Shown here piece after piece: positions 8,848 through 34,323 of a stretch of 59,872 nt of DNA (its first letter is position 1; each line of letters opens with the position of its first letter). A program made the translations under genes and the position numbers. Origin of the DNA: an uncultured Burkholderiales bacterium (GTDB lineage Bacteria; Pseudomonadota; Gammaproteobacteria; Burkholderiales; Burkholderiaceae_C). The notes under the pieces are model-generated. The model did not search any database and had not been told where the DNA came from. It worked only from the letters and a program-made list of their open reading frames with translations. The stretch is from NCBI GenBank assembly GCA_903861115.1, contig CAIOTD010000168.1, positions 1 through 59,872 on the forward strand, given 5' to 3'.

Positions 8848-10212
8848 GTGACCCAAAAAACTGAGCGCAAACTCATTGTTGAACACGCCTCGACCATTTT
8901 GGTCGGGCAGCTTGCCGTCATGGCGTTTGGCATCACGGACACCTTGGTGGCGGGACGCTATGACCAAAAAGCCTTGGCCGCTTTGTCGGTCGGCTCTGCC
9001 GTTTATATCAGCGTCTTTGTCGCCTTGATGGGGGTCTTACAGGCCTTGCTGCCTGTTTTATCAGAAATGCATGGCGCCAAAAAACCGCTAGAGGTTGGAC
9101 GCCAGTTTAGACAAGGCTTTTATTTGCTCCTTGGGTCTTGCGCCCTAGGCATTGCCATTTTGCTAAGCCCCAATCTGATTTTAGAGTGGACCCAAGTGCC
9201 AGAGAACTTAAAGCACGACGTGAGCGCCTATCTCTCAGTGCTGAGCTTGGGGCTGCCCCTCGCCCTTTTGTTCAGGATGTTTGCGACCTTGAACCAAAGC
9301 ATTGGAAAACCCAAATTGGTGACCTGGATTCAAATCATCGGACTGCTGCTAAAAATTCCACTCTCCATTGCCTTTACTTTTGGCCTCTTTGAAATCCCGC
9401 CCTTGGGTGTCGTGGGGTGTGCGTGGGCCACTTTTTGGGTGAATTTGGCCATGGTGCTCCTGTGCTTGGGACTGCTTAAAAAACAAGCCCTCTACAAGCC
9501 CTATGACATCTGGAGAAGATTGGAAAAACCCGATTGGCGCAGCCTGAGCACCCTGCTTCGCATTGGACTGCCAAACGCCTTGTCCGTTGCTGTTGAAGTG
9601 ACGTCTTTCACCTTGATGGCGCTTTTCATCTCCAGACAAGGCACAACCGCTGCAGCCACCCATCAAATTGTGACAAGTCTGGCCGCTTTGCTGTACATGG
9701 CCCCCCTCTCTTTGTCCATCGCCACCAGTGCGAGAGTGAGTTTTTGGCTGGGCGCTGAAGATCCCCTCAAAGCACGCATGGTGATGAAGCAAGGCTTTCT
9801 TTTGGATTGGAGCTTGGCAACAATCGTGAGCGTATTGATTTATTTTTTAAACCCTTGGATTGCCCCCCTGTTTACAACACACCCTGAAGTTGTCTCAGCC
9901 GCTTCAGGCGTTTTGATTTGGCTCTCCTTGTACCACTTGGGAGACGCCACACAGGTGATGTGCTTCTTTATGCTCAGGTGCTACAAAATCACTGTCATGC
10001 CTTTGCTCATCTATTGCATTTTTCTTTGGGGCGTAGGCCTGATGGGCGGCTATCATTTGGCCTATGAAGGCTTAGAGATGCTGAATGTACCCGCCATGCC
10101 TTCTCCTAAGACATTTTGGCTCAGCAACACCGCAGCCGTTTTTACAGTGAGCATTTGCATGCTCACTTTGCTCAACTGGGTCTCAAAAAAATCAGTTCAA
10201 GAGCGCACTTGA
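8848..10212 (+). CDS. MATE family efflux transporter
   Basis: A 454-residue, 12-helix cation-coupled multidrug/toxin exporter of the inner membrane. The two-fold repeated MatE domain is visible. The first half starts with VGQLAVMAFGITDTLVAGRY and the second with LLRIGLPNALSVAVEVTSFTL. The start is GTG at 8848 (no upstream ATG). It probably shares a transcript with the preceding membrane protein. Its last 21 bases overlap the 3' end of the convergent phoR gene. Confidence 0.9.
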   Translation: MTQKTERKLIVEHASTILVGQLAVMAFGITDTLVAGRYDQKALAALSVGSAVYISVFVALMGVLQALLPVLSEMHGAKKPLEVGRQFRQGFYLLLGSCALGIAILLSPNLILEWTQVPENLKHDVSAYLSVLSLGLPLALLFRMFATLNQSIGKPKLVTWIQIIGLLLKIPLSIAFTFGLFEIPPLGVVGCAWATFWVNLAMVLLCLGLLKKQALYKPYDIWRRLEKPDWRSLSTLLRIGLPNALSVAVEVTSFTLMALFISRQGTTAAATHQIVTSLAALLYMAPLSLSIATSARVSFWLGAEDPLKARMVMKQGFLLDWSLATIVSVLIYFLNPWIAPLFTTHPEVVSAASGVLIWLSLYHLGDATQVMCFFMLRCYKITVMPLLIYCIFLWGVGLMGGYHLAYEGLEMLNVPAMPSPKTFWLSNTAAVFTVSICMLTLLNWVSKKSVQERT

Positions 10213-11571
10213 TTCACGCACCTCGATGCCTCTCACCCTGGTTTTTGGAAGCACCCAAGAAAACTCAGACCCCTTGCCCAGCACACTTTGGATGTGCATT
10301 TCACCCCCATGGCGTTGAATCACGTGCTTCACAATGGCCAAGCCCAAACCAGTGCCACCGGTTTCTCGAGAACGACTTCTATCCACCCTGTAAAAACGCT
10401 CGGTCAATCTCGGAATGTGCTCTGCAGCAATGCCCACCCCGTTGTCCTTCACAACAAAACGCCATTCGCCTGTGGGCAATATCAAACAATTGACGCGAAC
10501 TTGAGCCCCAAGAGGCGTGTAACGCAAAGCGTTGCTGATCAAATTGGACATGGCACTTTGAATTTCTGCCTTGTTACCAGAGATCTCAACCCCCCCCTCA
10601 GGCCCCTCGTACTCAAATATAAGTTCATGGGGGGCTTGCTCATCTTGTAAAAGTGTTTTGGACAAGCCCCTCGCTTCTACCTCGCAATTATTAAGCAACG
10701 CTTCCAAGGAAAACCAATCCAAGGCACTTGGCAAAGGACTGCCCTCCAATTTGGACAAGGTCAACAAATCCTGAACCAAAATTTGCATTCTGCTTGCTTG
10801 TTGCTGCATCAAAGCCAAATAGTGGGTTTGCTCCTCAGGCGCTAAGCGCAAGTTTTGCATCGTCTCGACAAATCCGGCCAAAACGGTCAAGGGCGTGCGA
10901 ATCTCATGAGACACATTGGCCACAAAATCTCGCCGCATCAACTCGGCTTGCTCCAATGCAGTGATATCTCGCGTCAACATCAGTTTGTGCCCGTCGCCAT
11001 AGGGAAACAATTGAAGTGAAATTTTAGAGTAATTTTGAAATTGACTTTGAACACCCTCGATAACGACCTCATGGTCATACACCAAAGAATGCGCATAAGC
11101 CGTGTAAGCGGGGTCTCTCACCAAGTTGCCAATGAGTTGATCTTTGTCGCGTTGTAAATCAATGCCCAGATGAACTTTGGCCATTTCATTGGACCATTCA
11201 ATCCGGCCCTCTGGATTGATCAACAAGACCCCGTGGGGGGAGGCCTGAATGGCCGCTAAAAACTCGGTCAATCGAGCGTTGCTTTTGAGCTTCTCTCGCT
11301 CACGCATCTTCACCACGCGCACGACTCTGTCTCCAATTTCGCCCCACACCCCTCTTAAAAAGGGAGGCGCTTGCAGATCATCACCTTTTAACCAAGACAA
11401 GGTCGTCGAGGCTCGGTTGATGTCAAACAAGTACAAGACAAAACAAGTCACCAACAAAGAAATGAAGGCACTTTCCCAATAATTCTTGATGGGCAACAAA
11501 ACCTCACCGACCAGTACACCGGCAAGCAAGAAAAGACTGAAAATAAATGTCCGCCAAAACATACTGTACAT
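10192..11571 (-). CDS. phoR: Phosphate regulon sensor histidine kinase PhoR
   Basis: The inner-membrane kinase/phosphatase of PhoB. Two N-terminal membrane helices lie at about 5-22 and 35-50. They are followed by the PhoR-specific linker (QAPPFLRGVWGEIGDRV), a PAS domain (about 98-200), the HisKA motif SHEIRTPLTVL with H222, and the HATPase with N-box NLISNALRYTP and G-boxes DNGVGI and GTGLGLAI. Length (459) and order fit the family. In most relatives phoR directly follows phoB. Here phoB is about 20.5 kb away (32065-32772), with a catabolic island between them, so phoR needs another promoter or read-through from the upstream Bug gene. The start could be ATG 11571 or 11562. Confidence 0.93.
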   Translation of the reverse strand: MYSMFWRTFIFSLFLLAGVLVGEVLLPIKNYWESAFISLLVTCFVLYLFDINRASTTLSWLKGDDLQAPPFLRGVWGEIGDRVVRVVKMREREKLKSNARLTEFLAAIQASPHGVLLINPEGRIEWSNEMAKVHLGIDLQRDKDQLIGNLVRDPAYTAYAHSLVYDHEVVIEGVQSQFQNYSKISLQLFPYGDGHKLMLTRDITALEQAELMRRDFVANVSHEIRTPLTVLAGFVETMQNLRLAPEEQTHYLALMQQQASRMQILVQDLLTLSKLEGSPLPSALDWFSLEALLNNCEVEARGLSKTLLQDEQAPHELIFEYEGPEGGVEISGNKAEIQSAMSNLISNALRYTPLGAQVRVNCLILPTGEWRFVVKDNGVGIAAEHIPRLTERFYRVDRSRSRETGGTGLGLAIVKHVIQRHGGEMHIQSVLGKGSEFSWVLPKTRVRGIEVRESSALLN

Positions 11572-11573
11572 CC

Positions 11574-11592
11574 GTGATCAATGCTGTGATCA
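11574..11592. repeat. Two GTGATCA boxes upstream of phoR
   Basis: GTGATCA occurs at 11574-11580 and 11586-11592, a 12-base period with a palindromic TGATCA core, directly ahead of the phoR start. ACTGTACA also occurs twice nearby (about 11564 and 11614). Whether this is an operator is unknown. Confidence 0.35.
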
Positions 11593-11671
11593 GTTAAAAA
11601 ATATCAATAGCAGACTGTACACGAATGAAGCAGGTGCGCTTGGTTAAAAAGTTCCCTTTTAAGAGAAATAT

Positions 11672-12667
11672 TTAAAAATTACTCAAATTCAGTGATTTGA
11701 TGATGGGCGTCAATTGACGCTCGTCTTGCCTGACGTAATGGGTGAACTCCTCGGGTCCCATGACGGTCGATTCTGCACCCAAGGTGACCAATAAATCCTG
11801 CGCCTTGCTGGAGGCCATGACCTTGGCAACCGCTTTGTACAGCTTGTCGACAATGAGTTTTGAGGTCCCTTGAGGTGCGGCCAAACCATTCCAAGACTCG
11901 GACAAATACCCAGCAAGACCAGACTCGGCAACCGTTGGCACATCAGGGAAAAGCAAAGAACGCTTGGCGCTGCCCATCGCAATAGGACGAAGCTTGCCAC
12001 TTTTGACATGCTGAATTTGCGGTGTGATGTTCACAAAGGATACCTCGACCTGCCCACTGAGCACCGCCATGACCGCAGGCGCAGCGCCCGCAAAAGGAAT
12101 GTGGGTGAGCTTGACCGAGGTCATGCTGTTGAACAATTCACCACTCAAATGAGGTCCCGTCCCATTGCCTGCAGACGCATAATTGAGTTTTCCTGGATTT
12201 TTCTTTGCGTATGCAATGAGCTCGGGCAAATTGTTGATGGGAACCGAAGGGTGAACAGAGATCAAATTGGGGACCGTTGCAAACATGGCCACCAAGACAA
12301 AGTCCTTTTTGGCGTCATAAGGCAACGCTGGATTGATGACCGATTGAACCACCATCGGCGCAACCGTGGCCAACAAAAATGTATACCCATCAGGCGCCGA
12401 TTTTGCAACCACATTGGCCCCAATCACGGTCCCGCCACCAGGTTTGTTTTCAACCAAAAACTGCTGCCCAAATTCAACCGTTAAACCCTCAGCTAGCATT
12501 CTCACAATGTTATCTGAAGGTCCACCTGGTGCATAAGGATTGACAATTTTCACAACCCGTTCGGGCCAATTTTGTGCAAAACCGCTGACCATCCCAAGCG
12601 TCATAAAAGCCAGAATACACGCTCGCAAAAGGAAATTGTTTTTTTGCATTTTTGGGTGTTGACTCAT
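11672..12667 (-). CDS. Bug/TctC-family periplasmic solute-binding protein (first of four)
   Basis: About 331 residues. Bug proteins bind carboxylates in the periplasm and normally serve tripartite tricarboxylate transporters (TctABC). The start at ATG 12667 is chosen for the strong AGGAG 7-8 bases upstream. It gives a basic N-terminus, a hydrophobic signal (ACILAFMTLGMVSGFAQ) and the mature start NWPERVVKIVNPYAPGGPSDN. Family signatures seen are YAPGGPSD, VENKPGGGTVIGA and LNYASAGNGTGPHLSGELF. No TctA or TctB gene lies nearby. It follows the flavin reductase gene with a 10-base gap and precedes phoR by 100 bases on the same strand. Confidence 0.92.
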   Translation of the reverse strand: MSQHPKMQKNNFLLRACILAFMTLGMVSGFAQNWPERVVKIVNPYAPGGPSDNIVRMLAEGLTVEFGQQFLVENKPGGGTVIGANVVAKSAPDGYTFLLATVAPMVVQSVINPALPYDAKKDFVLVAMFATVPNLISVHPSVPINNLPELIAYAKKNPGKLNYASAGNGTGPHLSGELFNSMTSVKLTHIPFAGAAPAVMAVLSGQVEVSFVNITPQIQHVKSGKLRPIAMGSAKRSLLFPDVPTVAESGLAGYLSESWNGLAAPQGTSKLIVDKLYKAVAKVMASSKAQDLLVTLGAESTVMGPEEFTHYVRQDERQLTPIIKSLNLSNF

Positions 12668-12677
12668 GCTGCCACTC

Positions 12678-13325
12678 CTATTTATTTTGATTGATCCAAC
12701 CCTCACCCCCTGGGGGTTTTTGAAGCATGGGTTTTTCAATGATCTCACCCATTTTGGCGTAATAGGGGCCCCCCATCCTCGCAATGGCCTTCAACTTGAT
12801 GGAGTCCACTCGACTGCCATCATAAATATCCTCTCTAAGGTGAAACGCGACCACTTCACCAATGTACAAAACGTTTCTGCCCGTGCCTAAAACCACTTTC
12901 TGGTCAAGCTTGCATTCCATTTGCACGGGCGTACAAGCAATTCGTGGCACCTTCACAATTTGACTGCTTAAAAGCTCGATGCCTAAAACATCCGTCTCAC
13001 TTGTTTCAGGTGGAAATTCCTGCGCACTTGCATGCATTTGATCCAAGCTCGCCTCGTCGGCAACATTGACTACAAATTCGCCCGTCTCTAAGATGTTTCT
13101 CGCCGTGTCTTTCAAGACACCAGATCGATCAGCGATGTTCACCGCCAACATGGGTGGATCTGTTGCCACGTAGTTGTAAGAGCTAAAAGGCGCTGCATTG
13201 ACCAAACCGTTGAGCCCCTTGGTGGTGATCCAAGCCACAGGCCTTGGAACGACACAGCCAACAACCAACTTATAAGCCTGCGCAGTGTCCAAACCTTTTG
13301 CGGACACATAAATAAATTTGCTCAT
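12678..13325 (-). CDS. Flavin reductase-like protein (FMN-binding split barrel)
   Basis: About 215 residues of the flavin_reduct split-barrel family, whose members reduce FMN/FAD for partner monooxygenases or are flavoproteins of unknown reaction. Seen: VVPRPVAWITT and NAAPFSSYNYVATDPPMLAVNI, the usual flavin-contacting strands, and the C-terminal MGGPYYAKMGEI of the larger subgroup. No monooxygenase partner is encoded nearby, so its role in the island is open. ATG 13325 is preferred over an adjacent TTG. It is transcribed divergently from the CMD gene across a palindrome-rich region. Confidence 0.85.
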   Translation of the reverse strand: MSKFIYVSAKGLDTAQAYKLVVGCVVPRPVAWITTKGLNGLVNAAPFSSYNYVATDPPMLAVNIADRSGVLKDTARNILETGEFVVNVADEASLDQMHASAQEFPPETSETDVLGIELLSSQIVKVPRIACTPVQMECKLDQKVVLGTGRNVLYIGEVVAFHLREDIYDGSRVDSIKLKAIARMGGPYYAKMGEIIEKPMLQKPPGGEGWINQNK

Positions 13326-13469
13326 CAACGCCTATCCAATCTGTCTATTAAATGTTCACCAAATGCTTGACCATATTACAGGAGTTCAGAAAAAAAATTT
13401 CAAACAAAGCAGATTTAAACCTAGGGGTTTACACAATTGCAATCCATGGCAGGAGGGGAAAAATATATT

Positions 13470-13516
13470 TTGATTTGAGTTGAAAATCAATTCATAATTC
13501 AACCCAATTTAAATTG
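13470..13516. promoter_or_regulatory. Palindrome cluster in a divergent promoter region
   Basis: Three inverted repeats overlap or adjoin in the gap between the flavin reductase (minus) and CMD (plus) genes. They are TTGATTT (13470-13476) with AAATCAA (13484-13490), GTTGAA (13479-13484) with TTCAAC (13498-13503), and the perfect 12-base palindrome CAATTTAAATTG (13505-13516), ending 9 bases before the CMD start codon. This looks like operator sites for a dimeric regulator, but the island encodes none that I recognise. Confidence 0.45.
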
Positions 13517-13525
13517 AAAGTCGGT

Positions 13526-14098
13526 ATGCCTAGAATTACGCTCCCATCGCCAGATCAAATGAACGAAGAACAGCTCAAAGTGTTCAATAAAATGATAGCA
13601 GGCCCCAGGGGCAAAGTTCAAGGCCCCATCAGAGCAGCCATACACAATGCAGAGCTCGCTGATCGTTGGCAAGCACTTGGCGCTCTTTTAAGATACAACA
13701 CGTCGCTCACCCCCCGATTGTCAGAAATTGCCATCTTGGTCACAGCAAGATCCTCTCAGTCTCCGTTTGAATGGTATGCCCACCGAATTGAGGCCGAAAA
13801 AATTGGGCTTGAAAAACACATCATCGAGTCCATCTTGACCCTTAATAAGTCACCCTCATTGGCCAAAGAAGAAGCCCTGGTGTTTGATTTTGCACTTGAA
13901 TTGTGTCAAACAAAGTCTGTCTCCAATTCAACCTATAAAAATGCCCTGGACCATTTTGGAGATAAAACAATCGTTGAGCTGACTGCCTTGGTGGGTTATT
14001 ACACCATGGTAGCCATGACCCTTAATGCGCATGAAATTCCTTTGCCTGAAGGCATCGAACCCGCATTTTTATTGCCACAACATACACTCGCATCATGA
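13526..14098 (+). CDS. Carboxymuconolactone decarboxylase (CMD/AhpD) family protein
   Basis: About 190 residues with one CMD domain (residues about 40-140). Seen: RLSEIAILVTARSSQSPFEWYAHRIEAEKIGL, quoted here as its two parts LSEIAILVTARSSQSPFEW and YAHRIEAEKIGL, and the later segment VELTALVGYYTMVAMTLNAHEI. The CxxC of peroxidase-type AhpD is absent, so it is not a peroxidase of that kind; it is closer to decarboxylase-like or orphan members. ATG 13526 is chosen over TTG 13514. Its end overlaps the next gene by ATGA, which implies translational coupling. Confidence 0.85.
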   Translation: MPRITLPSPDQMNEEQLKVFNKMIAGPRGKVQGPIRAAIHNAELADRWQALGALLRYNTSLTPRLSEIAILVTARSSQSPFEWYAHRIEAEKIGLEKHIIESILTLNKSPSLAKEEALVFDFALELCQTKSVSNSTYKNALDHFGDKTIVELTALVGYYTMVAMTLNAHEIPLPEGIEPAFLLPQHTLAS

Positions 14099-14901
14099 AT
14101 TCAAAATGGGATTGCCATGCCCACGTGTTTGGGCCATATGGTCGCTATCCTCTCGCCAGCGGCAGAAGTTACTCACCCAAGGAAGCATTGCTTGAAGACT
14201 ACATGAATTTGCTCAAGCGACTGGACCTTCAACATGGTGTTCTCGTGCATCCCAGTGCATATGGTCAATCCTTCGAGTTGCTGTTTGACTGCCTTGCGAA
14301 AGAAAAATCTCTCAGAGGTGTCATTGTGACCCAACCTTCAATTGAGATGGACCTCAAAGAGCTGCGGGACAAGGGCATCCGAGCCGCACGTTTTAGTGCA
14401 CGCAGTGGCGCGAGCACCAACTTCTTTGGAAGCGCAAGTTTTGAAGACTATCTTTCCTTGCGCACGAAACTCCGCGACGCTGGGCTTCATGCGGAACTGT
14501 GGACAGATTGCAAAATGTTGCCCCTCATTGAGAGTGAACTCATCAATTCACCCGTGGATGTTGTCATTGACCACATGGGCGGATTTGATGTCAATTTAGG
14601 AATTGATGACCCTGGGTTTCAATGTCTTTTGAGGTTAATGGCCAGCGGGAAAATTTGGCTAAAACTGTGTGCTTATAGAAACTTGCTTCAAGACGCCAAC
14701 ATGGAACGTGGACAAGTCTTCCATCAAAAATTGCTTCAAACCAATCCGGATCGATTGGTTTGGGGAACGGATTGGCCTCATTTGAACGTCTCACCACCAC
14801 CCCACACAAGCACATTGTTAGAAACACTTACAAAGTGGACCCCAGACGACGCGGTGCTTGCAAAAATTTTATCCAACAATCCTCAAAAACTTTATCAATG
14901 A
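14095..14901 (+). CDS. Amidohydrolase_2 family hydrolase, LigI (2-pyrone-4,6-dicarboxylate lactonase)-like
   Basis: A TIM-barrel hydrolase of 268 residues. The HxH motif CHAHVFGP, the RYPL...RSYSP segment, VIDHMGGFD and the C-terminal WGTDWPHLN match the LigI branch of Amidohydrolase_2, enzymes that open lactone rings of dicarboxylic acids such as 2-pyrone-4,6-dicarboxylate. The true substrate cannot be read from the sequence. It overlaps both neighbours by ATGA (14095-14098 and 14898-14901), forming a tight three-gene cassette with a CMD protein and a Bug binding protein. That arrangement suggests uptake and hydrolysis of the same compound. Confidence 0.82.
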   Translation: MNSKWDCHAHVFGPYGRYPLASGRSYSPKEALLEDYMNLLKRLDLQHGVLVHPSAYGQSFELLFDCLAKEKSLRGVIVTQPSIEMDLKELRDKGIRAARFSARSGASTNFFGSASFEDYLSLRTKLRDAGLHAELWTDCKMLPLIESELINSPVDVVIDHMGGFDVNLGIDDPGFQCLLRLMASGKIWLKLCAYRNLLQDANMERGQVFHQKLLQTNPDRLVWGTDWPHLNVSPPPHTSTLLETLTKWTPDDAVLAKILSNNPQKLYQ

Positions 14902-15881
14902 GACAACGTTTGACTTCTTTGTGCCGCTCCATTGCGATTGGAGCAGTGATTTTAGGCCTTCAATTGAACTGTCTGAGCTCTCCTTTGATTAAAAAGCCCA
15001 TTCGACTGATCGTGCCCTTCCCAGCAGGCGGTGCAACAGACATCATGGCTCGCGGCATTGCGATGGGACTTGCCAACGAGCTGGAGCAAACCGTAGTGGT
15101 GGAAAACAAAGGAGGTGCAGGGGGTGCTATTGCTGCTGAATACGTGGCCCACTCAACCCCAGATGGCACAACACTCTTGTTTGCAACCATGGGCGTCATG
15201 TCAATCAACCCAAGTTTGTACCCCAAGCTGAAATACGATCCACTCAAAGACTTCACACCCATCTCACTCACCCACCTGACTCCCAGGGTGCTCGTTGTCA
15301 ACTCGGCGCTCCCCGTCAAAAGTGTCGCAGAACTCATTGCATATGCCCTGAAAAAACCCGGGCAACTGACCTACGGCTCCTCAGGAAATGGGAGTTCAAG
15401 CCATCTGTCTGGGGCACTTTTTGAAAATCTCGCAAAAGTCGATCTGCTTCATATCCCATACAAAGGCAGCTCTTTGCTTTTAACGGATTTGATCTCGGCA
15501 CGCGTAGACATGGCCTTTGATGCTTATGCGGTTTACGAGGAGCACATCAAAAGCGGGAAATTAAGGCTGCTCGCCATCACCTCTAAAAAAAGGATGCCTT
15601 GGCTGCCCAACATCCCAACCCTCTCCGAGTCTGGCTTGCCCAACTACGAAGTAGCAAACTGGCTTGGAGTCGTTGCCCCCTCGGGACTGCCCAGTGAGAC
15701 GGCAAAAGGCATCAATACCGCTTTGATCAAAGTAATGGGCAACCCCAGCTTGAAACAACAACTCTTTGACATTGGCATTGAGCCCACGAGCTCTTCGCCT
15801 GAAGAGTTCACCCGAACGATTCAAAGTGAAAGCATCAAATGGGCAGAAATTGTCAAAAAGGCCAACATCACCCTTGATTGA
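14898..15881 (+). CDS. Bug/TctC-family periplasmic solute-binding protein (second)
   Basis: About 327 residues from ATG 14898, which overlaps the amidohydrolase stop by four bases. An N-terminal hydrophobic signal (SIAIGAVILGLQLNCLSS) is followed by IKKPIRLIVPFPAGGATDIMA, here PFPAGGATD as the ligand-loop motif, then VVENKGGAGGAIAAEYVA and LTYGSSGNGSSSHLSGALF. A cysteine near the end of the signal could make it a lipoprotein, but the lipobox is not convincing. Its cassette suggests that it captures the substrate of the LigI-like hydrolase. Confidence 0.92.
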   Translation: MRQRLTSLCRSIAIGAVILGLQLNCLSSPLIKKPIRLIVPFPAGGATDIMARGIAMGLANELEQTVVVENKGGAGGAIAAEYVAHSTPDGTTLLFATMGVMSINPSLYPKLKYDPLKDFTPISLTHLTPRVLVVNSALPVKSVAELIAYALKKPGQLTYGSSGNGSSSHLSGALFENLAKVDLLHIPYKGSSLLLTDLISARVDMAFDAYAVYEEHIKSGKLRLLAITSKKRMPWLPNIPTLSESGLPNYEVANWLGVVAPSGLPSETAKGINTALIKVMGNPSLKQQLFDIGIEPTSSSPEEFTRTIQSESIKWAEIVKKANITLD

Positions 15882-15909
15882 TGCATTCAAGCTTGCGATG
15901 TGCAAACCA

Positions 15910-16869
15910 TTACTCTAAGGTGATTTGACCTTTTTTGAGCACCAAGGCCCATTTCATTGACTCTTGCTGCATCAATTTCTTGTACTCCTCGGCCGATGAG
16001 CTCGTGGCGATTGCACCTTGATTGGCAATTTGTGTTTTGATCGCTGGTGTATTGAGTGTCAATGTCAGCGCTTCCCGCATTTTTTGAGTAATTGCGGCGG
16101 GCGTTCCATTTGACGCAACCATTCCATAGTTGGACTCCACAAACACCGAGGGAAATCCCAACTCAGCCGTTGTTGGCACATTGGGCAAGGCCTCCACTCG
16201 CTTCGAGCCTGACACGGCCAAGATCTTGACCCCTTTGCTGACAAACTGTAAAACGGCTGGCAAATCAGCAGACAAGACCTGCACTTCCCCAGCCAATAAG
16301 GCGGTCACTGCCGGTACGGCACCCTTGTAGGCGATGTGCATCATCTTGATGCCCGTCTCTTGAGCGAGCAACTCACTTCCTAAATGGGGCGTCGTGGCGT
16401 TGCCTGCAGATGCGTAATTCAACTTTCCCGGCTCCTTTTTTGCAAGCGCGATCAACTCTTGCAAATTGTTGACCGGCACTTTGGGGCCAACCGTGATCAC
16501 TTGAGGGACCTTGGCAATCAAAGAAACATAATTGATTTCTTCAAGGGTATAGGGCAACTTTTGTAAGTGAGGCAAAACGGTGATACCACCCGGCACACCA
16601 AAACCAAAGGTATAACCATCTGGCTCAGCCTTGATCGCCGCATCAAGTCCAATGGTGCCACTCGCCCCGGCTTTGTTATCGATCATCACCGCTTGACCCA
16701 AAATTTCACCGAGCTTTGGTGCAACTGTTCTGGCCAATTGATCGACTGGACCTCCAGGAGGATAGGGAACAATCAGTTTAATGGGTCGACTTGGCCAACT
16801 GGTTTGTGAGAAAGCCCATGATGACATGCATACACAAATGGCACCTAAAAGGATCTTGACTGTTTTCAT
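15910..16869 (-). CDS. Bug/TctC-family periplasmic solute-binding protein (third)
   Basis: 319 residues with a standard signal peptide (ILLGAICVCMSSWAFSQ). The Bug signatures VPYPPGGPVDQLART, IDNKAGASGTIGLDAA and LNYASAGNATTPHLGSELL are present. GGAG lies 6 bases before the ATG. It is the last gene of a ten-gene minus-strand run, 21 bases after the MaoC gene, so it probably delivers the substrate for that pathway. It converges on the second Bug gene with a 28-base gap. Confidence 0.92.
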   Translation of the reverse strand: MKTVKILLGAICVCMSSWAFSQTSWPSRPIKLIVPYPPGGPVDQLARTVAPKLGEILGQAVMIDNKAGASGTIGLDAAIKAEPDGYTFGFGVPGGITVLPHLQKLPYTLEEINYVSLIAKVPQVITVGPKVPVNNLQELIALAKKEPGKLNYASAGNATTPHLGSELLAQETGIKMMHIAYKGAVPAVTALLAGEVQVLSADLPAVLQFVSKGVKILAVSGSKRVEALPNVPTTAELGFPSVFVESNYGMVASNGTPAAITQKMREALTLTLNTPAIKTQIANQGAIATSSSAEEYKKLMQQESMKWALVLKKGQITLE

Positions 16870-16890
16870 GAGGGTCTCCGTTTATTAGAA

Positions 16891-17349: not shown

Positions 17350-17350
17350 G

Positions 17351-19669: not shown

Positions 19670-19687
19670 AACAATATCTTTCCGTCA

Positions 19688-20908: not shown

Positions 20909-20935
20909 TGAAATCCCTTGAATGTGATCAACATA

Positions 20936-21541: not shown

Positions 21542-21558
21542 TTTTTTGACTTTTTCTG

Positions 21559-22335: not shown

Positions 22336-22367
22336 GTTTTGCCTATCAAAGTTTTAACTGTAATTGC

Positions 22368-23588: not shown

Positions 23589-23662
23589 TTGTTGCCTTTA
23601 TGATTGTGTTTGTTATTCGCTTTTATTGAGCGCTTGAATTGATGTGTATGATTGCACAGTCC

Positions 23663-24856: not shown

Positions 24857-24859
24857 TTT

Positions 24860-26308
24860 TTACTTTTGTTTAAAATTGAAAAGTGGACGGATGCTTTTCA
24901 TATCCTGAAGATCGACGAGTTGTTCATACAACCCAATGGCTTCAGATTCTCGGCCCTTTAAACCGCCATAACTGCAACAGTCTAAAAATTTTTCTTTCAG
25001 TGCGTCTTTTGTCAATGGCAAAAAAGCGTTTCCTCTTGGAAATCTAATATCACCTGAATCAATGACTTGTCCATTTTTTAAATGGATCACCACTCGATCG
25101 TTGAGTGAAAAGGCAGGATCAATTGGACACTTGGTATCAACTAAATCGACCTCAACTCTTTTCATAAGTTCTTGCACCTCACTCAACTGAACAAAAGCAT
25201 CGGTGAGCTCAGCCAGACCCACCTTCCCCACCAACAAGGCACAGGCCACCGAAAACTCCAAACTGAACTTTGCCTCTAAACCATTTTGTGGCAGATGATT
25301 TCTCAACATAGAAGCTTGTGCTGGGCCTATAAAAGCTTGAACCTTCAGAACCGCCTCATGACCCAATCCATGACTCTTCACTGCATCCAACACGCCGTCC
25401 ACGACACGATGCGCAGAGTAGCAGATGGGGTACTGCTTAATGGATACCCTTGAGCCTGCAATTCTTGAAGTGCTTAAACAACTTGCCGGACTGTCCAAAT
25501 CGACTTGTCCCTTTGGAGATATTGCATTTAGAAATCCAGCGGGCGACTCGAATACAGCACTTGAAGCGGTCATGCCAGTTTTTGCATGCATCACGGCCTC
25601 AATCGCATTGGAGACAGCACGGCCCGCCTGCATGGGCTTGGACATCGAGCCAAAGTTGGCGGTCAACCCTGAAGCCATGCTGGCCGCCAATGAAATGGCA
25701 TGGGTTGATTGCTTGGCGTTCAATCGGTAGAGGTGTGCAACCGCCGCAGCGCACGCAACTGTGCCCAAAACGGCGGTTGGGTGCCAGCCCTTTAAATGGT
25801 ATTGATCGCTCTCGCGACTCAACAACTCAGCCCAAACCTCATAACCCACCCAGTAGGCTTGCAGGACTTGCTCGCCTGATGCATCCACTGCATGGCCGAC
25901 TGCAAAAACCGCGGGCCCCAACACCACACTTGGATGACCCGAAAGGGCTACATCATCGTAGTCCAAGGCATGTCCAAGCGTTGCATTTAAGAATCCGGCG
26001 TCTTGGGGTCTTAGATACGCGTCAAAGACTGGCACAGGAGAGAAGCGCTCAAAGTTGGATGCCTCTTCATTGATTGCCTTGTTGACAGCGCCTTGCTCTT
26101 TGAAAAAATTAAACAACATGGCCGCTACAGGCTCATTCTTTCCAGCAAACATTGTGGCGACCGTATCGGCCAGACCCATTTTGATGATTTCAAACGCCTC
26201 GCGCCTTTGAGCTTGCAGCTTTGGGGTTTCAACAGCGCCCGCGCCCAGAGAAAAAAATGGTTGGCTGATGAACTGCCCCAATTCAGCAGATAATCCCAAT
26301 CGGTTCAT
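24860..26308 (-). CDS. MmgE/PrpD family protein
   Basis: 482 residues. The family holds 2-methylcitrate dehydratase (PrpD), cis-aconitate decarboxylase and iminodisuccinate epimerase, all acting on branched or tricarboxylic acids. Seen: the helical N-terminal domain with LNATLGHALDYDDVALSGHPS, cited as GHALDYDDVALSGHPS, GWHPTAVLGTVACAAA, and a C-terminal alpha/beta domain. With CoA-transferases and dehydrogenases beside it, a branched dicarboxylic or tricarboxylic substrate is plausible, but that is inference. It is followed after 3 bases by the acyl-CoA dehydrogenase gene. Confidence 0.9.
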   Translation of the reverse strand: MNRLGLSAELGQFISQPFFSLGAGAVETPKLQAQRREAFEIIKMGLADTVATMFAGKNEPVAAMLFNFFKEQGAVNKAINEEASNFERFSPVPVFDAYLRPQDAGFLNATLGHALDYDDVALSGHPSVVLGPAVFAVGHAVDASGEQVLQAYWVGYEVWAELLSRESDQYHLKGWHPTAVLGTVACAAAVAHLYRLNAKQSTHAISLAASMASGLTANFGSMSKPMQAGRAVSNAIEAVMHAKTGMTASSAVFESPAGFLNAISPKGQVDLDSPASCLSTSRIAGSRVSIKQYPICYSAHRVVDGVLDAVKSHGLGHEAVLKVQAFIGPAQASMLRNHLPQNGLEAKFSLEFSVACALLVGKVGLAELTDAFVQLSEVQELMKRVEVDLVDTKCPIDPAFSLNDRVVIHLKNGQVIDSGDIRFPRGNAFLPLTKDALKEKFLDCCSYGGLKGRESEAIGLYEQLVDLQDMKSIRPLFNFKQK

Positions 26309-26365
26309 AGAAGTCCTTCGTAAAGCTTTGCTTGAATGATTTAACGGCTCAAGTTGGGATCATTT

Positions 26366-27541
26366 TTATCCCGCGTCATTGACCGAACCAAGCCATGTCT
26401 GACTGTCTTGACCCAATTTGGGCGGCGGGCCATAGGGCGCTGGACGAACACCATTAAAACTCAAGGGAAGCCCCAAAAACTTCATCCCAGTGCCCGGCAC
26501 CTCTTGAACCAAACCCAGCTCCTTCGTTTGCTCATGCTCAAGCATTTGTGCTAAGTTTTGTATGGGCGCACAGGGGACACCCTGATCTTCGAGCACTTGC
26601 TGCCAATGGGCGGAGGGTTGATCCGCCAAGACTTGATCAATCAGGGCATAAAGTTCTTTGCTGTTCCTCACCCGATCCGGATTGGTTAAAAACCGTGGAT
26701 CCTTGGCCCATTGCGGGTGACCCAAGGCTTGCGAAAGAGCTCGAAACAGATCATCGCTACCCGCAGCAATGACCAACTCACCATCCAAGACTTGGTAGGC
26801 CTTGTAAGGAACAATACCTGGCGCACCGGAGCCTTGTTTGGGACTTAATTCACCGCTTGCTAAAAACTGGGCTGCAAGCAAAGACACCCACTGTGTTGCG
26901 GTTTCATACAAAGAAACATCAATGCATTGCCCTTGTCCAGTTTCTTTCTTGTTTAAGAGCGCGCTCAAAATACCAATGACTGACCACATGCCTGTGCCCA
27001 TGTCAACAATCGAGGCACCAACTCTAACCGATGGTCGCCCGACCTCTCCCGTTGTGCTCATGATCCCACCAAAGGCTTGCATCAATGGGTCATAGCCTGG
27101 TTTGGATTTCAATGGGCCTTGCTGTCCAAAGGCACCCAAATTGCAATAAATCAACGCGGGCTTTAAAGCCAACAGCGTTGGTCCATCAAGGCCCAACTCC
27201 TCGACATGACCAGGGCGCAAATTTTGAACCACGACATCGGCTTTGCTCACAATCAAATCAATCAATGCTGCTCTTTGTCGCTCATCTCTCAGATCACAAA
27301 CCACCGAATCCTTGTTGCGATTAAGTGCCTGGAAAAAAGCAGAGGCGCCTTCCCAAAAAGGGGGCCCCCAGCGCCTGGCATCGTCTCCCTGCGGTTTTTC
27401 TACTTTGATCACCCGTGCGCCTAACTCAGCGAGTATTTGAGCGGCGTAGGGTGCAGCAACACTGCTGCCCAGTTCGACCACAATCAGATCTTTGAAGGCG
27501 TTTGAAAATAAATGGGGTGAATTCATGAAAGGGTTCAACAA
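26366..27541 (-). CDS. CaiB/BaiF family CoA-transferase (third)
   Basis: 391 residues, more distant from the other two. Seen: VVELGSSVAAPYAAQILAELG, cited as SVAAPYAAQILAELGARV, IKVEKPQGDDARRWGPPFW, LNRNKDSVVCDL and the catalytic Asp D151 in KPGYDPLMQAFGG. A TTG start at 27541 is preferred because AGGAG lies 7 bases upstream; the alternative ATG at 27526 has no ribosome-binding site and would drop five residues. It is the first gene of the ten-gene run and lies 57 bases from the MmgE/PrpD gene. Confidence 0.9.
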   Translation of the reverse strand: MLNPFMNSPHLFSNAFKDLIVVELGSSVAAPYAAQILAELGARVIKVEKPQGDDARRWGPPFWEGASAFFQALNRNKDSVVCDLRDERQRAALIDLIVSKADVVVQNLRPGHVEELGLDGPTLLALKPALIYCNLGAFGQQGPLKSKPGYDPLMQAFGGIMSTTGEVGRPSVRVGASIVDMGTGMWSVIGILSALLNKKETGQGQCIDVSLYETATQWVSLLAAQFLASGELSPKQGSGAPGIVPYKAYQVLDGELVIAAGSDDLFRALSQALGHPQWAKDPRFLTNPDRVRNSKELYALIDQVLADQPSAHWQQVLEDQGVPCAPIQNLAQMLEHEQTKELGLVQEVPGTGMKFLGLPLSFNGVRPAPYGPPPKLGQDSQTWLGSVNDAG

Positions 27542-27737
27542 ACGGGTGCTCCTCTTGACGGTCCAAGAGCAAAGACGCAGACCTCTTCAAAAGAAATTGG
27601 CTCAATAAGAAGCAATTCATTCTAGGGCGCCACAAAGCCCTGTCAATGGGTTTTCTACCCAGCAAGAAAAGCAATAATTGGTGATCTAATTCTTCAATTG
27701 ATAAAGTTTTAATCATTTTTTTACTTAGGTAGGTCCC

Positions 27738-28793
27738 ATGTCACACGACCCAACTCAAACTGTTTTCACCCCCATTTCAGCCTTCAACTCAAAGCGACGC
27801 GAGTACCTCAAAGCGCACATGCTCCTCGCCCTTGCTAGCACGGGCGTGCTCTCCTCGCCCTTGACGCATGCAGCCGATGCCCCAAAGAGCACCTACCCCA
27901 CCAGACCCATCAAAATGATCGTACCTTGGCCTCCAGGACAAGCCACCGACTTGGCTGCTCGGGTTTTGAGTCAAGAGCTGTCCAAGCTCATCGGTACACA
28001 AATCATCATTGACAACAAAGCCGGTGCAGGTGGTGGAATTGGAACCGATGCGGTCGCCAAATCTGCCGCCGATGGATACACCATTTTGGCTGGATCAAGT
28101 GGCCCAGTCACAGTGAGTCCTTTGCTACAAAAAACCCCTTATGACGTTGAAAAAGAACTGGTACCAGTGGCCATGCTGGGCTTGTCCCCTTATGTCTTGG
28201 TCACAGCCATGAATTTCCCAGCCAAGGACATCAAAGAGTTGGTGGAGATGTTCAAAGCCAGTCCTGGCAAATACACCTTTGCCACTTCTGGCACAGGTGC
28301 CACAGCTCACCTGATCACGGAAGCGTTCAATGCCGCACTGGGCATTCAAGGTGTTCATATTCCGTACAAAGGTTCTATTCCAGCGCTCACCGATGTGGTC
28401 AGCGGGCAAGTGAATTACTGCATTGAGACGGCTGCCTCTGTCATACCTTTGATTCGGGGCGGCAAGCTCAAGCCCTATGGTGTTTCATTAGAAAAAGGCA
28501 GCTCTGTGACGCCCGGAATTCCAGCAATGTCCAGCACATTGGATTTACCTGGATTTGACATGGGTGCTTGGCTCGGCCTCATGGTGCCCACTGGAACGCC
28601 TAAGGATGTGATAGAAAAAATTGCCCTGGCCACTGAAAAAGCCATGTCCTCAGCCGAGGTCAAACAAGCCTTCAACACGATCGCGTTGGAAATTGACTAC
28701 CGACGCAGCGATGAATTCATCAAGTACTTGAAAAACATCAAAACCGCATTTTCTGATGTGATCAAGAAAAACAACATCAAAGTCGACGCCTAG
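27738..28793 (+). CDS. Bug/TctC-family solute-binding protein with Tat-like signal (fourth)
   Basis: 351 residues. The N-terminus is longer than in the other three and contains SKRREYLKAHMLLALASTG, a twin-arginine pattern followed by a moderately hydrophobic stretch and an AxA-like site (THAADA). It may therefore be exported folded by Tat, unlike its Sec-type relatives. Mature signatures are MIVPWPPGQATDLAARV, IDNKAGAGGGIGTDAVAKS and FATSGTGATAHLITEAF. It is on the plus strand between two minus-strand operons and its stop overlaps the stop of the convergent ligase gene by four bases. Confidence 0.92.
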   Translation: MSHDPTQTVFTPISAFNSKRREYLKAHMLLALASTGVLSSPLTHAADAPKSTYPTRPIKMIVPWPPGQATDLAARVLSQELSKLIGTQIIIDNKAGAGGGIGTDAVAKSAADGYTILAGSSGPVTVSPLLQKTPYDVEKELVPVAMLGLSPYVLVTAMNFPAKDIKELVEMFKASPGKYTFATSGTGATAHLITEAFNAALGIQGVHIPYKGSIPALTDVVSGQVNYCIETAASVIPLIRGGKLKPYGVSLEKGSSVTPGIPAMSSTLDLPGFDMGAWLGLMVPTGTPKDVIEKIALATEKAMSSAEVKQAFNTIALEIDYRRSDEFIKYLKNIKTAFSDVIKKNNIKVDA

Positions 28794-30409
28794 GTCTTGT
28801 TGCTCGCCAAGCGCTGAACTTTTGGATAGGGACCGTCCAAGAGTTCATAGTGCGACAAGACCAATTCACGGACTTTCTTGCGACTGATCTTGCCCTGCGG
28901 GTTTCTAGGAAGCGCCTTGAAGTCGATCAAAATTCTGGGCTGCTTGTATTTGGACAATGCGTTCAATCGAGCGTTTAGCTCCTGCGTCCATTCAGCGCCA
29001 ACCCCTTCGGCCACTGCAATAATCACTTCGCCCCAGTATTCGGAGGCCAAAGAGGTGATACAAACTGTATCCCACTGCGCAGAGCCTGCGAGCAACAATT
29101 CAATTTCATCGGGATTGACGCGGTAGCCCCCCGTTTTGATCACATCAGCGATTCGTCCGGTGAGCATTAGGCGACCCTTGTCATCAAAATATCCCAAGTC
29201 TCCCGTAGCATGCCAGCCCTCGTGCTCGTGCTCGATCACACCGTCAGGATTGAGCAAACAACAAGACATCTGCGGCGCTCTTAGATAAATTTCGCCTTGC
29301 GCTCGGTCAGCTCCAAGGTCCGCCTCCTCTTGACCCTCTAATTCGGCGCGAGGCACAATTTTCATCTCAACCCCCGCTTGAGGCCAACCCACACAAGCGC
29401 CAGCCGGTAGCGGCTTTGTTTGATAAAAATCGTGCGTTTGCTCGGGGGTTAAAACCGTGATCGGGTTGACGCACTCGGACTTGCCAAAGGTCACCCTCAC
29501 CACAGGACCAAACATCTCATGGGCCTTGTCGTACAGCCCCTTGGACAAGGGTTGGGTACCGGTGAAGATACATTTAACCCCCTTGAACACACGCCCCTCA
29601 TGACCTTGAATCAGTTTTCCTAAAACAGTGGGAGGCGCAAAAATATACTGCAGGGCGTCGCTCTCCAAAAGCGGTGTAATTTTTGGTAAATCGACACCAT
29701 TCAAAAGCACCACCTCCGCACCAAAATCAGCCCAGGCAAAGGTCATCAAAGAAGCACCGTGAACAAAGGGCGTCATCAAAAGAAGCTTGGATCCCTTTTG
29801 TGGAACAAAGGGCATTGAAGCCTTTAACATTTGTTCTGCGATCCACCGTCTTTGATGGGAGTAGACAACACCTTTGGGTTTGCCGGTCGTGCCGGATGTG
29901 AATAAAATTCTCCCCCAATCCTCAGACTTGACGCTTGGCAGAACCTCCACCCCATGGGCGTCATTTTTGATCTGCAAGTCCATCTCAGCTCTCAACGCTT
30001 CAATGCTAAGGACGCTAAAGCCAAGCTGGGTCAACTGAGTGCGTTTATTTTCATAAGTGACAATCCATTTGAACTTGGCGACATCCGCACACCACTGGAG
30101 CTCATCTGGGGTGCTGCTGAAATTCAAGGGTACCTCTGCGGCTCCATTTAACTTGATGCCGTAAGTGATCCAAATGGCATCCAGGTGGTTCGGTAGCAAA
30201 GACGCAACCGGCTCGGCACTTTTTATGCCGTTTTGGGTCAAGACTTTGGCAAGCGCATGGGCAAAGACATTCAATTCATTGAAGGTCAAGGATTCATTGG
30301 CACCGTCTGACGCAAAGGTGCGAGGACCGAATTTTTGCGCCAACTGGTTCAAACTCTCAGACCAGTTGATGTGTGCGATAGAGGTCTGTGAAGAGAAATT
30401 GATGGGCAT
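28790..30409 (-). CDS. AMP-forming acyl-CoA synthetase/ligase
   Basis: 539 residues of the ANL superfamily. The P-loop ILFTSGTTGKPKGVVYSH lies at about 168-185. YLRAPQ, GWHATGDLGYFD, the hinge GRIADVIKTGGYRVNPDEIE and the C-terminal lysine segment NPQGKISRKKVRE are all present, so it should be active. It would adenylate a carboxylic acid and load CoA. It lies 39 bases downstream of the D-aminoacylase-like gene, so the pair may release an acid from an N-acyl compound and then activate it. Confidence 0.92.
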   Translation of the reverse strand: MPINFSSQTSIAHINWSESLNQLAQKFGPRTFASDGANESLTFNELNVFAHALAKVLTQNGIKSAEPVASLLPNHLDAIWITYGIKLNGAAEVPLNFSSTPDELQWCADVAKFKWIVTYENKRTQLTQLGFSVLSIEALRAEMDLQIKNDAHGVEVLPSVKSEDWGRILFTSGTTGKPKGVVYSHQRRWIAEQMLKASMPFVPQKGSKLLLMTPFVHGASLMTFAWADFGAEVVLLNGVDLPKITPLLESDALQYIFAPPTVLGKLIQGHEGRVFKGVKCIFTGTQPLSKGLYDKAHEMFGPVVRVTFGKSECVNPITVLTPEQTHDFYQTKPLPAGACVGWPQAGVEMKIVPRAELEGQEEADLGADRAQGEIYLRAPQMSCCLLNPDGVIEHEHEGWHATGDLGYFDDKGRLMLTGRIADVIKTGGYRVNPDEIELLLAGSAQWDTVCITSLASEYWGEVIIAVAEGVGAEWTQELNARLNALSKYKQPRILIDFKALPRNPQGKISRKKVRELVLSHYELLDGPYPKVQRLASNKT

Positions 30410-30448
30410 GGGTTGATTTAAAAATTCAAGGGTTCAATTTTGAGGCGC

Positions 30449-31972
30449 TTAAAAAGCGCTCGTGAACTTGTTCGTGTGATCTTGGTGACCCAAGACATGA
30501 CCCGAAAAACGCCCAGTCGCTCGTCCGTCTTGGTAGACCATTTCACCGTTGACCCAGACGCCTAGGATACCTCTTGAGGCCGCAACTGGGCGTTCGTAGC
30601 TAGAAACAGCATCGACTTGTTCAGGGTCGAAGAGCGTCAAATCTGCGTAGTAACCCACACGAATTTCACCGCGACCGCTCAATCTAAAATTTTTAGCTGT
30701 GGTCGATGTCATTTTTCTGATGGCACTTTCAAGTGGAAACAAGCCCAAAGTTCGACTGTAATGCCCAAGCACTTTGGTGAAAGAGCCCCAAAGCCTTGGA
30801 TGTGGAAATTCATCATGCGGCAAGCCGTCTGATCCGATCATCACCTGTGGGTGCGACAAAATGGTTTGTACATCTGACTCATCCATTCGAAAATAAATGG
30901 CGCCAGCGGGATCTAGTCGCTGGATGGTCTCCTCTTCGTTGAGTTCCAGCTTTTGAGCAATGGCAGACAAATCTTTGCCCGCCATTTCAGGCATGGCCTT
31001 AGACCACGTCACAATGACTCTAGAAGCCGTCAAGGCGCGATCAAAACTCAAGATGGTAGAGCTTGCAGGATAAGGGTAGCAATCAAAACAAATTTCTTGG
31101 CTGCCTTGATGGGCCTGAATATGGTCCAAAGCGCGCGATGACTGACCATAATTTTTAACACCAACCACTTTTAGATGCGAGATGATCACAGGGGCATCCA
31201 CCTCTCGACCCACTAAAAAACTCTCATCCAAGGACGCCAAAAGACCCCCTGCTTCGTCTCTCATGTGGGTGCAGTAGACCCCTTTTGATGCCTTCAATGG
31301 CCTACAAATTTCAATGACTTCTTGCGTGCTTGCAGCCTTAGCCGGCTCGTAATAAAGGCCTGTGGACACGCCAATGGCTCCGGCATTCAAAGCCTCACTG
31401 ACTTGCTCACGCATGGCTGAAATTTCTGCCTCATTGGCCTCTCGATTTAAATCCTCCATGACCGCAACTCTGAGAGTCGTGTGACCCACCAACAGTGCAC
31501 AGTTGATGGCAGAAGGTTGATCCCTCAAGGCTTGAACATAGGATGCAAAGTCCTTGAAACGAAACCAATCGCCTGATTCGTCAAGAAGATTGAGAGGCGG
31601 CGTCACCGCCTTTTCAAATGCCTTGGGCATTGGGGCCAAGGAGATACCGCAATTGCCGGCAATCACGGTCGTTACACCCTGACTCAATTTAGGCATCATT
31701 TGAGGATCAGACAACAAAAGGCGATCGTCATGCGTGTGCGCATCGATAAAGCCAGGTGACAGGACCATGCCCTTGGCGTCAAAAACAAGCTTTGAATGGG
31801 CCATTTGTGCTTTTAATGCACAAGCACTCTCTTGTTGATGCTCATCGAAAACGCCGACAATTTTGTCGGCGAGGATGGCAACAGCCCCCTTGAATCGTGC
31901 TGTACCCGTGCCATCGATGATGGACGCATTGAATATGAGTAAATCGACAAGATCCACGGGTAAGTCTGCCAT
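30449..31972 (-). CDS. D-aminoacylase / N-acyl-D-amino-acid deacylase family amidohydrolase
   Basis: 507 residues. Seen: the metal-binding GFIDAHTHDD, the family-specific metal-bridging Cys in VIAGNCGISLAPM, YCTHMRDEAGG and VIISHLKVVG, each with a metal-ligand His, and the catalytic Asp in MIGSDGLPHDEFPHPR. The family hydrolyses N-acyl-D-amino acids or related cyclic amides, and many members are uncharacterised. It lies 92 bases downstream of phoB on the same strand, so transcription from the pst operon could run into it. Confidence 0.88.
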   Translation of the reverse strand: MADLPVDLVDLLIFNASIIDGTGTARFKGAVAILADKIVGVFDEHQQESACALKAQMAHSKLVFDAKGMVLSPGFIDAHTHDDRLLLSDPQMMPKLSQGVTTVIAGNCGISLAPMPKAFEKAVTPPLNLLDESGDWFRFKDFASYVQALRDQPSAINCALLVGHTTLRVAVMEDLNREANEAEISAMREQVSEALNAGAIGVSTGLYYEPAKAASTQEVIEICRPLKASKGVYCTHMRDEAGGLLASLDESFLVGREVDAPVIISHLKVVGVKNYGQSSRALDHIQAHQGSQEICFDCYPYPASSTILSFDRALTASRVIVTWSKAMPEMAGKDLSAIAQKLELNEEETIQRLDPAGAIYFRMDESDVQTILSHPQVMIGSDGLPHDEFPHPRLWGSFTKVLGHYSRTLGLFPLESAIRKMTSTTAKNFRLSGRGEIRVGYYADLTLFDPEQVDAVSSYERPVAASRGILGVWVNGEMVYQDGRATGRFSGHVLGHQDHTNKFTSAF

Positions 31973-32064
31973 TGCCCCATTTTAAGGCAACATACCCTTG
32001 GGATTCACCCGATCAACACAGGTGTTTTCACCAAGCTCACTTGCAAAGTGGCCTTAAAATTTTC

Positions 32065-32772
32065 TTAGGCTGCGTCAGCGATTTGAACTTGAGCAGTGAA
32101 TCGGTACCCTGCACCCCTGACCGTCTCAATCATGGGCCCAGCAGCGCCCAAAGACTCTCGCAAACGCTTCACATGCACATCGACCGTGCGCTCCTCAATG
32201 AACACGTGGTCACCCCAAATTTTGTCAAGGAGTTGAGATCGTGAATGCACACGCTCTGCATGGCGCATCAAATAATTCAACAGCTTGAATTCTGTGGGAC
32301 CAATCTTAAGGGCCACGTCTCTGAAGTTAACCCGATAAGTTGCTCCATCCAGCGTCAAGTCACCCACAGTCACCGTGTCCAAAGCCTGCTCTGGGGCGCG
32401 TCTTCTGAGGACCGCACGAATGCGTGCCAACAACTCCTGCGTTGAAAAGGGCTTGGTGATGTAATCATCTGCGCCGGCATCTAGCCCAGAGACCTTGTCG
32501 CTCTCATCGCTTCGGGCGGTCAACATCACAATAGGAACGCTTTTGACCCTTGGATCGGCTCTCCAGCGCTTGGCCAACGTCACGCCGCTTTGACCAGGTA
32601 GCATCCAATCGAGCAAGATGATATCGGGCAAAATGGTGTCAATCTCTCTTTGCGCCGACTCGCCATCTTCGGCCCAAATAGGGGTCAGCCCATTGTGACG
32701 CAGATTGACAGCAATCAACTCTGCAATGGAAGACTCATCTTCTACGATTAGAACTCTAGGAGGATGTCTCAT
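32065..32772 (-). CDS. phoB: Phosphate regulon response regulator PhoB
   Basis: 235 residues. The receiver domain has the acidic pair E11-D12, phosphoacceptor D55 (LLDWMLPG) and the Lys in YITKPFS. The OmpR-type winged helix covers about 130-230 (RSQLLDKIWGDHVFIEERTVDVHV). It binds Pho boxes when phosphorylated. It is the last pst-operon gene before the island, 15 bases after phoU. Its cognate kinase gene phoR is displaced to 10192-11571. Confidence 0.96.
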   Translation of the reverse strand: MRHPPRVLIVEDESSIAELIAVNLRHNGLTPIWAEDGESAQREIDTILPDIILLDWMLPGQSGVTLAKRWRADPRVKSVPIVMLTARSDESDKVSGLDAGADDYITKPFSTQELLARIRAVLRRRAPEQALDTVTVGDLTLDGATYRVNFRDVALKIGPTEFKLLNYLMRHAERVHSRSQLLDKIWGDHVFIEERTVDVHVKRLRESLGAAGPMIETVRGAGYRFTAQVQIADAA

Positions 32773-33489: not shown

Positions 33490-33531
33490 GAGTAATTCCT
33501 AAAATTCTGATCAATTTAATTTTATTCAATT

Positions 33532-34308: not shown

Positions 34309-34323
34309 GATTCCATTAGAAAT

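Follow-up and report, generated by a model that had tools for sequence, protein, structure and literature searches.

A catabolic gene block between phoB and phoR probably takes the phosphate sensor kinase out of Pho control in a clade of Burkholderiales

The usual order of the phosphate genes in this bacterial family is pst-phoU-phoB-phoR, with the gene for the response regulator PhoB next to that for its sensor histidine kinase, PhoR. How did the two genes come to lie far apart in a contig of an uncultured Burkholderiales bacterium (CAIOTD010000168.1, 59,872 nt; the whole contig was analysed and is called the window here), and what would the separation do to control of the kinase? All of these genes and their flanks are kept in the window, but the phoB-phoR adjacency is lost: the two genes, both on the minus strand, are 20,493 bp apart from the first ATG of phoR to the phoB stop (20,496 by search coordinates), rather than side by side as in a phoBR operon. 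The original prediction, made from the sequence of the window, had put about 19.3 kb of catabolic coding island between them; the separation holds, with 18 genes for enzymes and solute receptors in the gap, and the distance is corrected by our measurement. The genome (2.79 Mb in 200 contigs) is 91.6% complete and holds a single PhoR-grade gene, the second of ten matches dropping from 1028 to 55 bits (28% identity), in agreement with the prediction that there is no second phoR. Its product passes the TIGR02966 cut-off, as expected of a true PhoR, and carries HisKA, HATPase and PhoR domains (PF00512, PF02518 and PF11808). The catalytic histidine is residue 222, as predicted, if counted from the first ATG; because the ATG of four related genomes aligns with M4 of the window protein, the true start is probably at 11562, and the histidine would then be residue 219. 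The names pstC, pstA, pstB and phoU come from the first reading of the sequence, gene order and conserved place in relatives, not from a family-library scan.

Relatives show that the separation is a derived state. Counting two genes as adjacent when they share a strand and a contig with a gap below 1.5 kb, we found phoB beside phoR in 61 of the 70 members of the genus-level group for which both genes were listed (84 genomes were searched; three others list phoR only, two phoB only and nine neither). The nine non-adjacent members are five genomes with the block (the window's genome, G000, with G104, G100, G018 and G029; hereafter the island clade), two with a second kind of split, and two (G042 and G046) whose genes lie near contig ends. 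In the family outside the genus, the pair is adjacent in 129 of 130 genomes among the matches listed (200 searched, with three genus members excluded and the 17 genomes on each side that occur in one gene's list only left out), the exception being G229, where phoB lies 173 bp from a contig end. At the level of the order, 28 of the 30 genomes listing both genes have them adjacent (32 searched); the genes are tail to tail in G065 and on two contigs in G056. The original prediction had proposed looking for an empty site in close relatives, and it exists: in G021, G023, G092, G094, G038 and G015, phoB and phoR are adjacent, with matE, the open reading frame (ORF) that starts at 7094 in the window (7094 below) and rho past phoR, and phoU, pst and ppx past phoB. 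Since these relatives keep the flanks on both sides of an adjacent pair, it is well supported that phoR stayed put and that a block of genes came in between it and phoB.

The block occurs in a single clade. It is collinear, between the same flanks and on one contig, in G000, G104, G100 and G018, and it lies at two contig ends in G029, where the contig gap falls between coaT3 and tctC4. The five genomes separate from the other ten with a support of 1.000 in a FastTree phylogeny of six proteins from 15 genomes, and a PhoR tree places them likewise. The four carriers besides the window's genome are the four genomes nearest to it by PhoR. The simplest history is one insertion before the five genomes diverged. 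The original prediction had set aside an old rearrangement for the case that all close relatives are split; this is true of the four nearest genomes but not of the genus, which makes the insertion clade-wide and not recent, as also follows from the PhoR proteins of the clade being only 78-91% identical to that of the window.

The predicted "20-kb catabolic island" is too simple a description of the block, whose size varies: the phoB-phoR gap is 20.5 kb in G000, 19.8 kb in G104, 15.4 kb in G100 and 13.8 kb in G018. Ten genes are common to all five genomes (tctC1, the flavin reductase gene, cmd, amh2, tctC2, ech, acad2, mmgE, coaT3 and tctC4), while acs and coaT2 are absent from G018, gst from G100 and amh3 from G029, and tctC3 is present in the window only. 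The maoC-fused dehydrogenase-coaT1 block is found only in G000 and G104 and has a low GC content at third codon positions (GC3; 0.42-0.45, with 0.44-0.58 in other island genes and 0.50-0.64 in the flanking genes measured), which fits a later insertion.

Control of phoR was inferred from its leader and from what lies between it and phoB. We built a Pho-box matrix from the pstS boxes of nine relatives with the window's own held out, and it gave 29.6 bits to the site before pstS in the window, a score to be read knowing that four of the nine are clade members and that the G104 box is identical to the held-out site. The best score before phoR in the window is -2.9 bits, which by sequence does not place phoR behind a Pho-box promoter; the corresponding scores are -5.2 in G104, 2.3 in G029, -1.9 in G100 and 11.1 in G018, for a null distribution of best scores per 160 nt with a median of -3.8, a 95% point of 5.0 and a 99% point of 8.7. 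For the leader between tctC1 and phoR, the spacing of tblastn hits gives 108-114 bp in each of the other four genomes, and its 12-mer TTCGTGTACAGT, kept in four of the five and occurring once in the window's genome, is a candidate promoter or operator. The opposite-strand blocks at 13514-15881 and 27738-28793 face any transcript coming from pst-phoB in all five genomes. At the phoB end of the island, TTGGTGAAAACACC at 32021-32034 (of which GGTGWAAACACC is kept in all five) is followed by a TTAAAAT-like hexamer and is a candidate island promoter before amh3.

Generic scans added little. Consensus counts were near shuffled means for promoters (9 against 6.4; 7 against 9.4) and for terminators (5 against 9.1; 14 against 12.2), and we drew no support from either. 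With three mismatches allowed, a generic Pho-box consensus matched at 4 sites where 5.7 were expected by chance, leaving the nine-relative matrix as the only useful one. When one mismatch was tolerated, TTGGTGAAAACACC had an uninformative 7 matches and its reversed control 4, and no regulon could be read from TTCGTGTACAGT, since the genome has it at one place only.

PhoR probably still acts together with PhoB, given that it is intact, that conservation is highest in its histidine domain and that its gene is under purifying selection. The phoR reading frame is open without stops in all five clade genomes, and identity to the window's PhoR across the clade is 91-100% in the histidine domain, against 58-96% for the membrane part. 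The ratio of nonsynonymous to synonymous divergence (w), taken from simple NG86 counts in which some synonymous divergences (dS) exceed 1, is 0.074 and 0.080 for phoR in two island-clade pairs; three pairs with adjacent genes give 0.103, 0.038 and 0.072.

The explanation that we consider probable as a whole is as follows. A single insertion would have brought a catabolic block into the short phoB-phoR gap in an ancestor common to the five-genome clade, leaving phoR unmoved beside its convergent neighbours matE, 7094 and rho. The pst-phoU-phoB unit retains its Pho box, through which PhoB would amplify its own synthesis when phosphate is exhausted. phoR now sits behind the flavin reductase-tctC1 unit, with a 100-114-bp leader that has no conserved Pho box, and is separated from pst-phoB transcripts by the two opposite-strand blocks; with such a leader and such opposing units, an island or local promoter would determine the level of PhoR, largely independently of phosphate. 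The PhoR:PhoB ratio would then fall when PhoB is induced, in place of the fixed ratio of the Escherichia coli phoBR operon, and PhoR has probably been cut off from the feedback to which PhoB is subject.

Some observations weigh against this explanation. The Pho-box-like site by phoR in G018 lies above the 99% point of the null, although it faces away from phoR and the sister genome G029 reaches 2.3 bits; the leader 12-mer TTCGTGTACAGT is missing in G029; and all five clade genomes are metagenome bins, going by the record titles for four and by the number of contigs for the window's genome. The phoR/matE distance ratios in ten island pairs (1.27-1.81) are at the high end of those in other pairs (0.80-1.76), which could reflect some relaxation or a mild rate change of phoR, while phoR/7094 ratios (0.90-1.17) show no such rise. 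Indirect Pho control of phoR could also escape a scan like ours. The predicted uncoupling of the kinase from Pho control is partly supported, by the sequence of the window's phoR leader and by the opposed units, and qualified by the G018 site; its two suggested consequences, lower PhoR induction and control by island promoters, may each apply.

If phoR were still Pho-controlled, by a local PhoB site or by read-through, the split would have no regulatory effect; the G018 site and the co-directional island unit that precedes phoR would suit this, but the leaders of the other four genomes score between -5.2 and 2.3 bits and opposite-strand blocks intervene, and we think it unlikely, though worth keeping in mind. 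We are more sceptical that the insertion brought a regulatory gain, with amh3-acs under Pho read-through or PhoR under a catabolic signal, linking carbon and phosphate use. amh3-acs does follow phoB on the same strand, after a 92-bp gap without a terminator-like site, and tctC1 precedes phoR in all five genomes; however, there is a conserved candidate promoter element before amh3, amh3 is missing in G029, and the best Pho-box scores over the whole island (6.5 bits in G000, 5.0 in G104, 11.1 in G018 and 10.5 in G100) are within or below the 9.4-17.9 bits reached by five random 59.9-kb sequences. That phoR is dispensable and decaying while another kinase serves PhoB is very improbable: nine further kinase-like matches in the genome and the high phoR/matE ratios would allow it, but the gene is open in all five genomes, its w of 0.07-0.08 is like that of adjacent pairs and its histidine domain is kept. 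A chimera of assembly or binning, with the island or phoR misjoined in a metagenome contig, might be suspected in a genome of 200 contigs and 91.6% completeness, yet its chance is close to nil, being already contradicted by the same order and flanks in G104, G100 and G018, on contigs of 92, 183 and 82 kb recorded as coming from different isolates.

The same genus holds a second split. In G109 and G085 (stretches L115, L116, L117 and L155), phoR lies 46 and 69 bp (between tblastn hits) behind homologues of folP-glmM, and pst-phoU-phoB is on another contig, with ilvD and rmuC downstream of phoB, directly in G085 and after a lactonase gene in G109. A 13.4-bit Pho box lies 93 bp before the pstS match in G109; the G085 contig begins inside pstA. 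In the window, the homologues recognised by their domains, which we take to be folP and glmM, lie beyond pstS. For this pair of genomes, w is 0.133 for phoR and 0.142 for matE. As in the island clade, the phoB-phoR adjacency was lost independently, but here the pst-phoU-phoB block left, whereas in the island clade a block was inserted. Two different routes have led away from the phoB-phoR adjacency that is otherwise retained in the group.

The 18 island genes of the window (Table 1) encode three CoA transferases, two acyl-CoA dehydrogenases, an MmgE/PrpD protein, an enoyl-CoA hydratase, a MaoC protein, an acyl-CoA synthetase, a glutathione transferase, two amidohydrolases, a flavin reductase, a CMD-like protein and four TctC-type receptors. 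tctC1 and the flavin reductase gene keep the same order in all five clade genomes, with tctC1 adjoining phoR; ech, acad2, mmgE and coaT3 are in all five, and gst and coaT2 in four. No regulator or membrane transporter families were found among the 18 island ORFs scanned, smaller and overlapping ORFs being outside the scan. Alongside the four TctC-type receptor genes (11672-28793), the same 18 include neither a TctA nor a TctB membrane component, and the 772-aa acyl-CoA dehydrogenase (17351-19669) has a PimD-like followed by a PimC-like half, both NCBIfam matches being below cut-off.

Table 1. Coordinates of the phoB-phoR locus and its surroundings in the window.
Feature	Position	Strand	Remarks
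phoR, sensor histidine kinase	10192..11571	-	TIGR02966, 360.4 bits (cut-off 334.2); probable start M4 (11562)
tctC1-phoR gap	11572..11671	-	100 bp; holds TTCGTGTACAGT at 11614-11625
TctC-type receptor (tctC1) and flavin reductase	11672..13328	-	PF03401, PF01613; on phoR's strand, could read into phoR
Opposite-strand block: CMD-like protein, amidohydrolase 2, TctC receptor	13514..15881	+	CMD-like Pfam score below cut-off; opposite in five of five
TctC receptor (tctC3)	15910..16869	-	PF03401; among the five, window's genome only
maoC, fused acyl-CoA dehydrogenase (772 aa), CoA transferase III	16891..20908	-	G000 and G104 only; GC3 0.42-0.45
gst, enoyl-CoA hydratase, CoA transferase III (coaT2), acyl-CoA dehydrogenase (acad2), MmgE/PrpD, CoA transferase III (coaT3)	20936..27541	-	
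TctC receptor (tctC4)	27738..28793	+	PF03401; five of five; opposes pst-phoB read-through
AMP-binding acyl-CoA synthetase (acs) and amidohydrolase 3 (amh3)	28790..31972	-	each in four of five; first genes after phoB
phoB-amh3 gap	31973..32064	-	candidate island promoter element
phoB, response regulator	32065..32772	-	TIGR02154, 319.5 bits (cut-off 296.2)
phoU, pstB, pstA, pstC, pstS	32788..37280	-	same-strand run, phoB last; PstS by NF008171
Pho box TAGTCATATTAATGTCACA before pstS	37316..37334	-	29.6 bits, best in window

No integrase or transposase families occur among the 18 island ORFs in Pfam and NCBIfam (75 ORFs of at least 60 aa overlap the island stretch, and the smaller ones were outside the scan), there is no tRNA in the window, the junction gaps have no common word of 8 bp or more, and no repeats lie within either junction region, although 13 direct and 11 inverted imperfect families are present inside 10100-33000; the prediction that no integrase or repeat explains the insertion stands within that scope. 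Recombination of a chromosomal cluster would most simply account for it. A search for an MmgE donor in 398 other family genomes at the harsh threshold of 1e-130 found none, a setting that a distant donor could escape. Within the genus, at 1e-40, 16 of 84 genomes have MmgE matches: the five of the island clade, seven at 50-54% over the matched part and four at 32-36%. The seven at 50-54% carry parts of the module (acad2, mmgE and coaT3, some also acs or tctC4) in stretches without pho genes, at tblastn identities of 48-50% for mmgE, 64-69% for acad2 and 60-67% for coaT3. A relocated genus module and horizontal gain are both possible sources. In the sister species G094, G026, G032 and G021, 241-323 bp lie between phoB and phoR, where the genus median is 30, and we conjecture that a widened gap may have preceded the insertion; the sister gaps align poorly.

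On the other side of phoR, sister species carry extra genes between it and matE (L113:11918-12730, L072:15-1955 and L074:6226-6738). They include a gene for a 270-aa class II aldolase in G094 (with 91% identity to one from G026), a TctC receptor gene adjoining phoR in G026, and a gene for a DUF2127 protein in G021. The order of the flanks is unchanged, yet these genes show that the flanks have taken up other insertions and that catabolic genes have come to lie next to phoR on more than one occasion. Farther out, relatives with stretches that extend far enough retain 7094 (580 aa, 7094-8836) between rho and matE; searches of NCBIfam (E up to 1e-10) and Pfam (E up to 1e-5) gave no match for it.

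Other parts of the window may also belong to the Pho system. The second best Pho-box-like site in the window (37390-37408, 14.0 bits, within chance for the whole window) faces the exopolyphosphatase gene ppx, which may be Pho-controlled. At 41732-44503, genes for a GNAT acyltransferase (PF13444), a calcineurin-like phosphoesterase and a GT4 glycosyltransferase follow clustered Pho-box-like sites of 12.2, 10.1 and 6.7 bits, and similar sites occur in G104, G100 and G018. We take the acyltransferase to be OlsB-like and the phosphoesterase PlcP-like; the genes may form a Pho-controlled unit for membrane-lipid renovation.

The kinase and regulator families are those of E. coli, and in both cases the regulator is under a Pho box. 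In E. coli, phoB and phoR share one positively autoregulated promoter (PMC3812086, PMC6194859) and PhoR is made at about a tenth of the level of PhoB (PMC6194859), whereas in the window other units precede phoR and 20.5 kb separates it from phoB. In Caulobacter crescentus, phoB ends a pst-phoU unit and phoR is named apart from it: the excerpt of PMC11208175 names the PhoB-activated pst-phoU-phoB unit separately from phoR. That excerpt mentions no catabolic insertion, whereas such an insertion produced the split described here, which is derived. A 200-bp rule classes about 40% of prokaryotic two-component genes as orphans (PMC3018481). With orphans so common and phoR named apart in C. crescentus, uncoupled kinases as such are already known. 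No split of phoB and phoR appeared in titles or abstract openings among open PMC papers, and as far as this search of the literature shows, the insertion route and its repeat within one genus are new.

On a broader reading, which we offer tentatively and regard as doubtful taken together, at least twice in the genus, and by different routes, the kinase came to be uncoupled from the feedback on its regulator, a state that lasted through speciation under selection, with the phoR neighbourhood acting as a settling spot for catabolic genes on either side; a phosphate-independent level of PhoR may be favoured in these lineages, with the island perhaps linking the amount of PhoR to a carbon substrate. 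What is known quantitatively of the Pho switch derives from E. coli, where a single autoregulated promoter supplies both PhoB and PhoR. In the present group the two genes have been separated twice in nature, and relatives that keep them adjacent can serve as controls, which makes the role of co-expression in the phosphate response testable by comparison of species.

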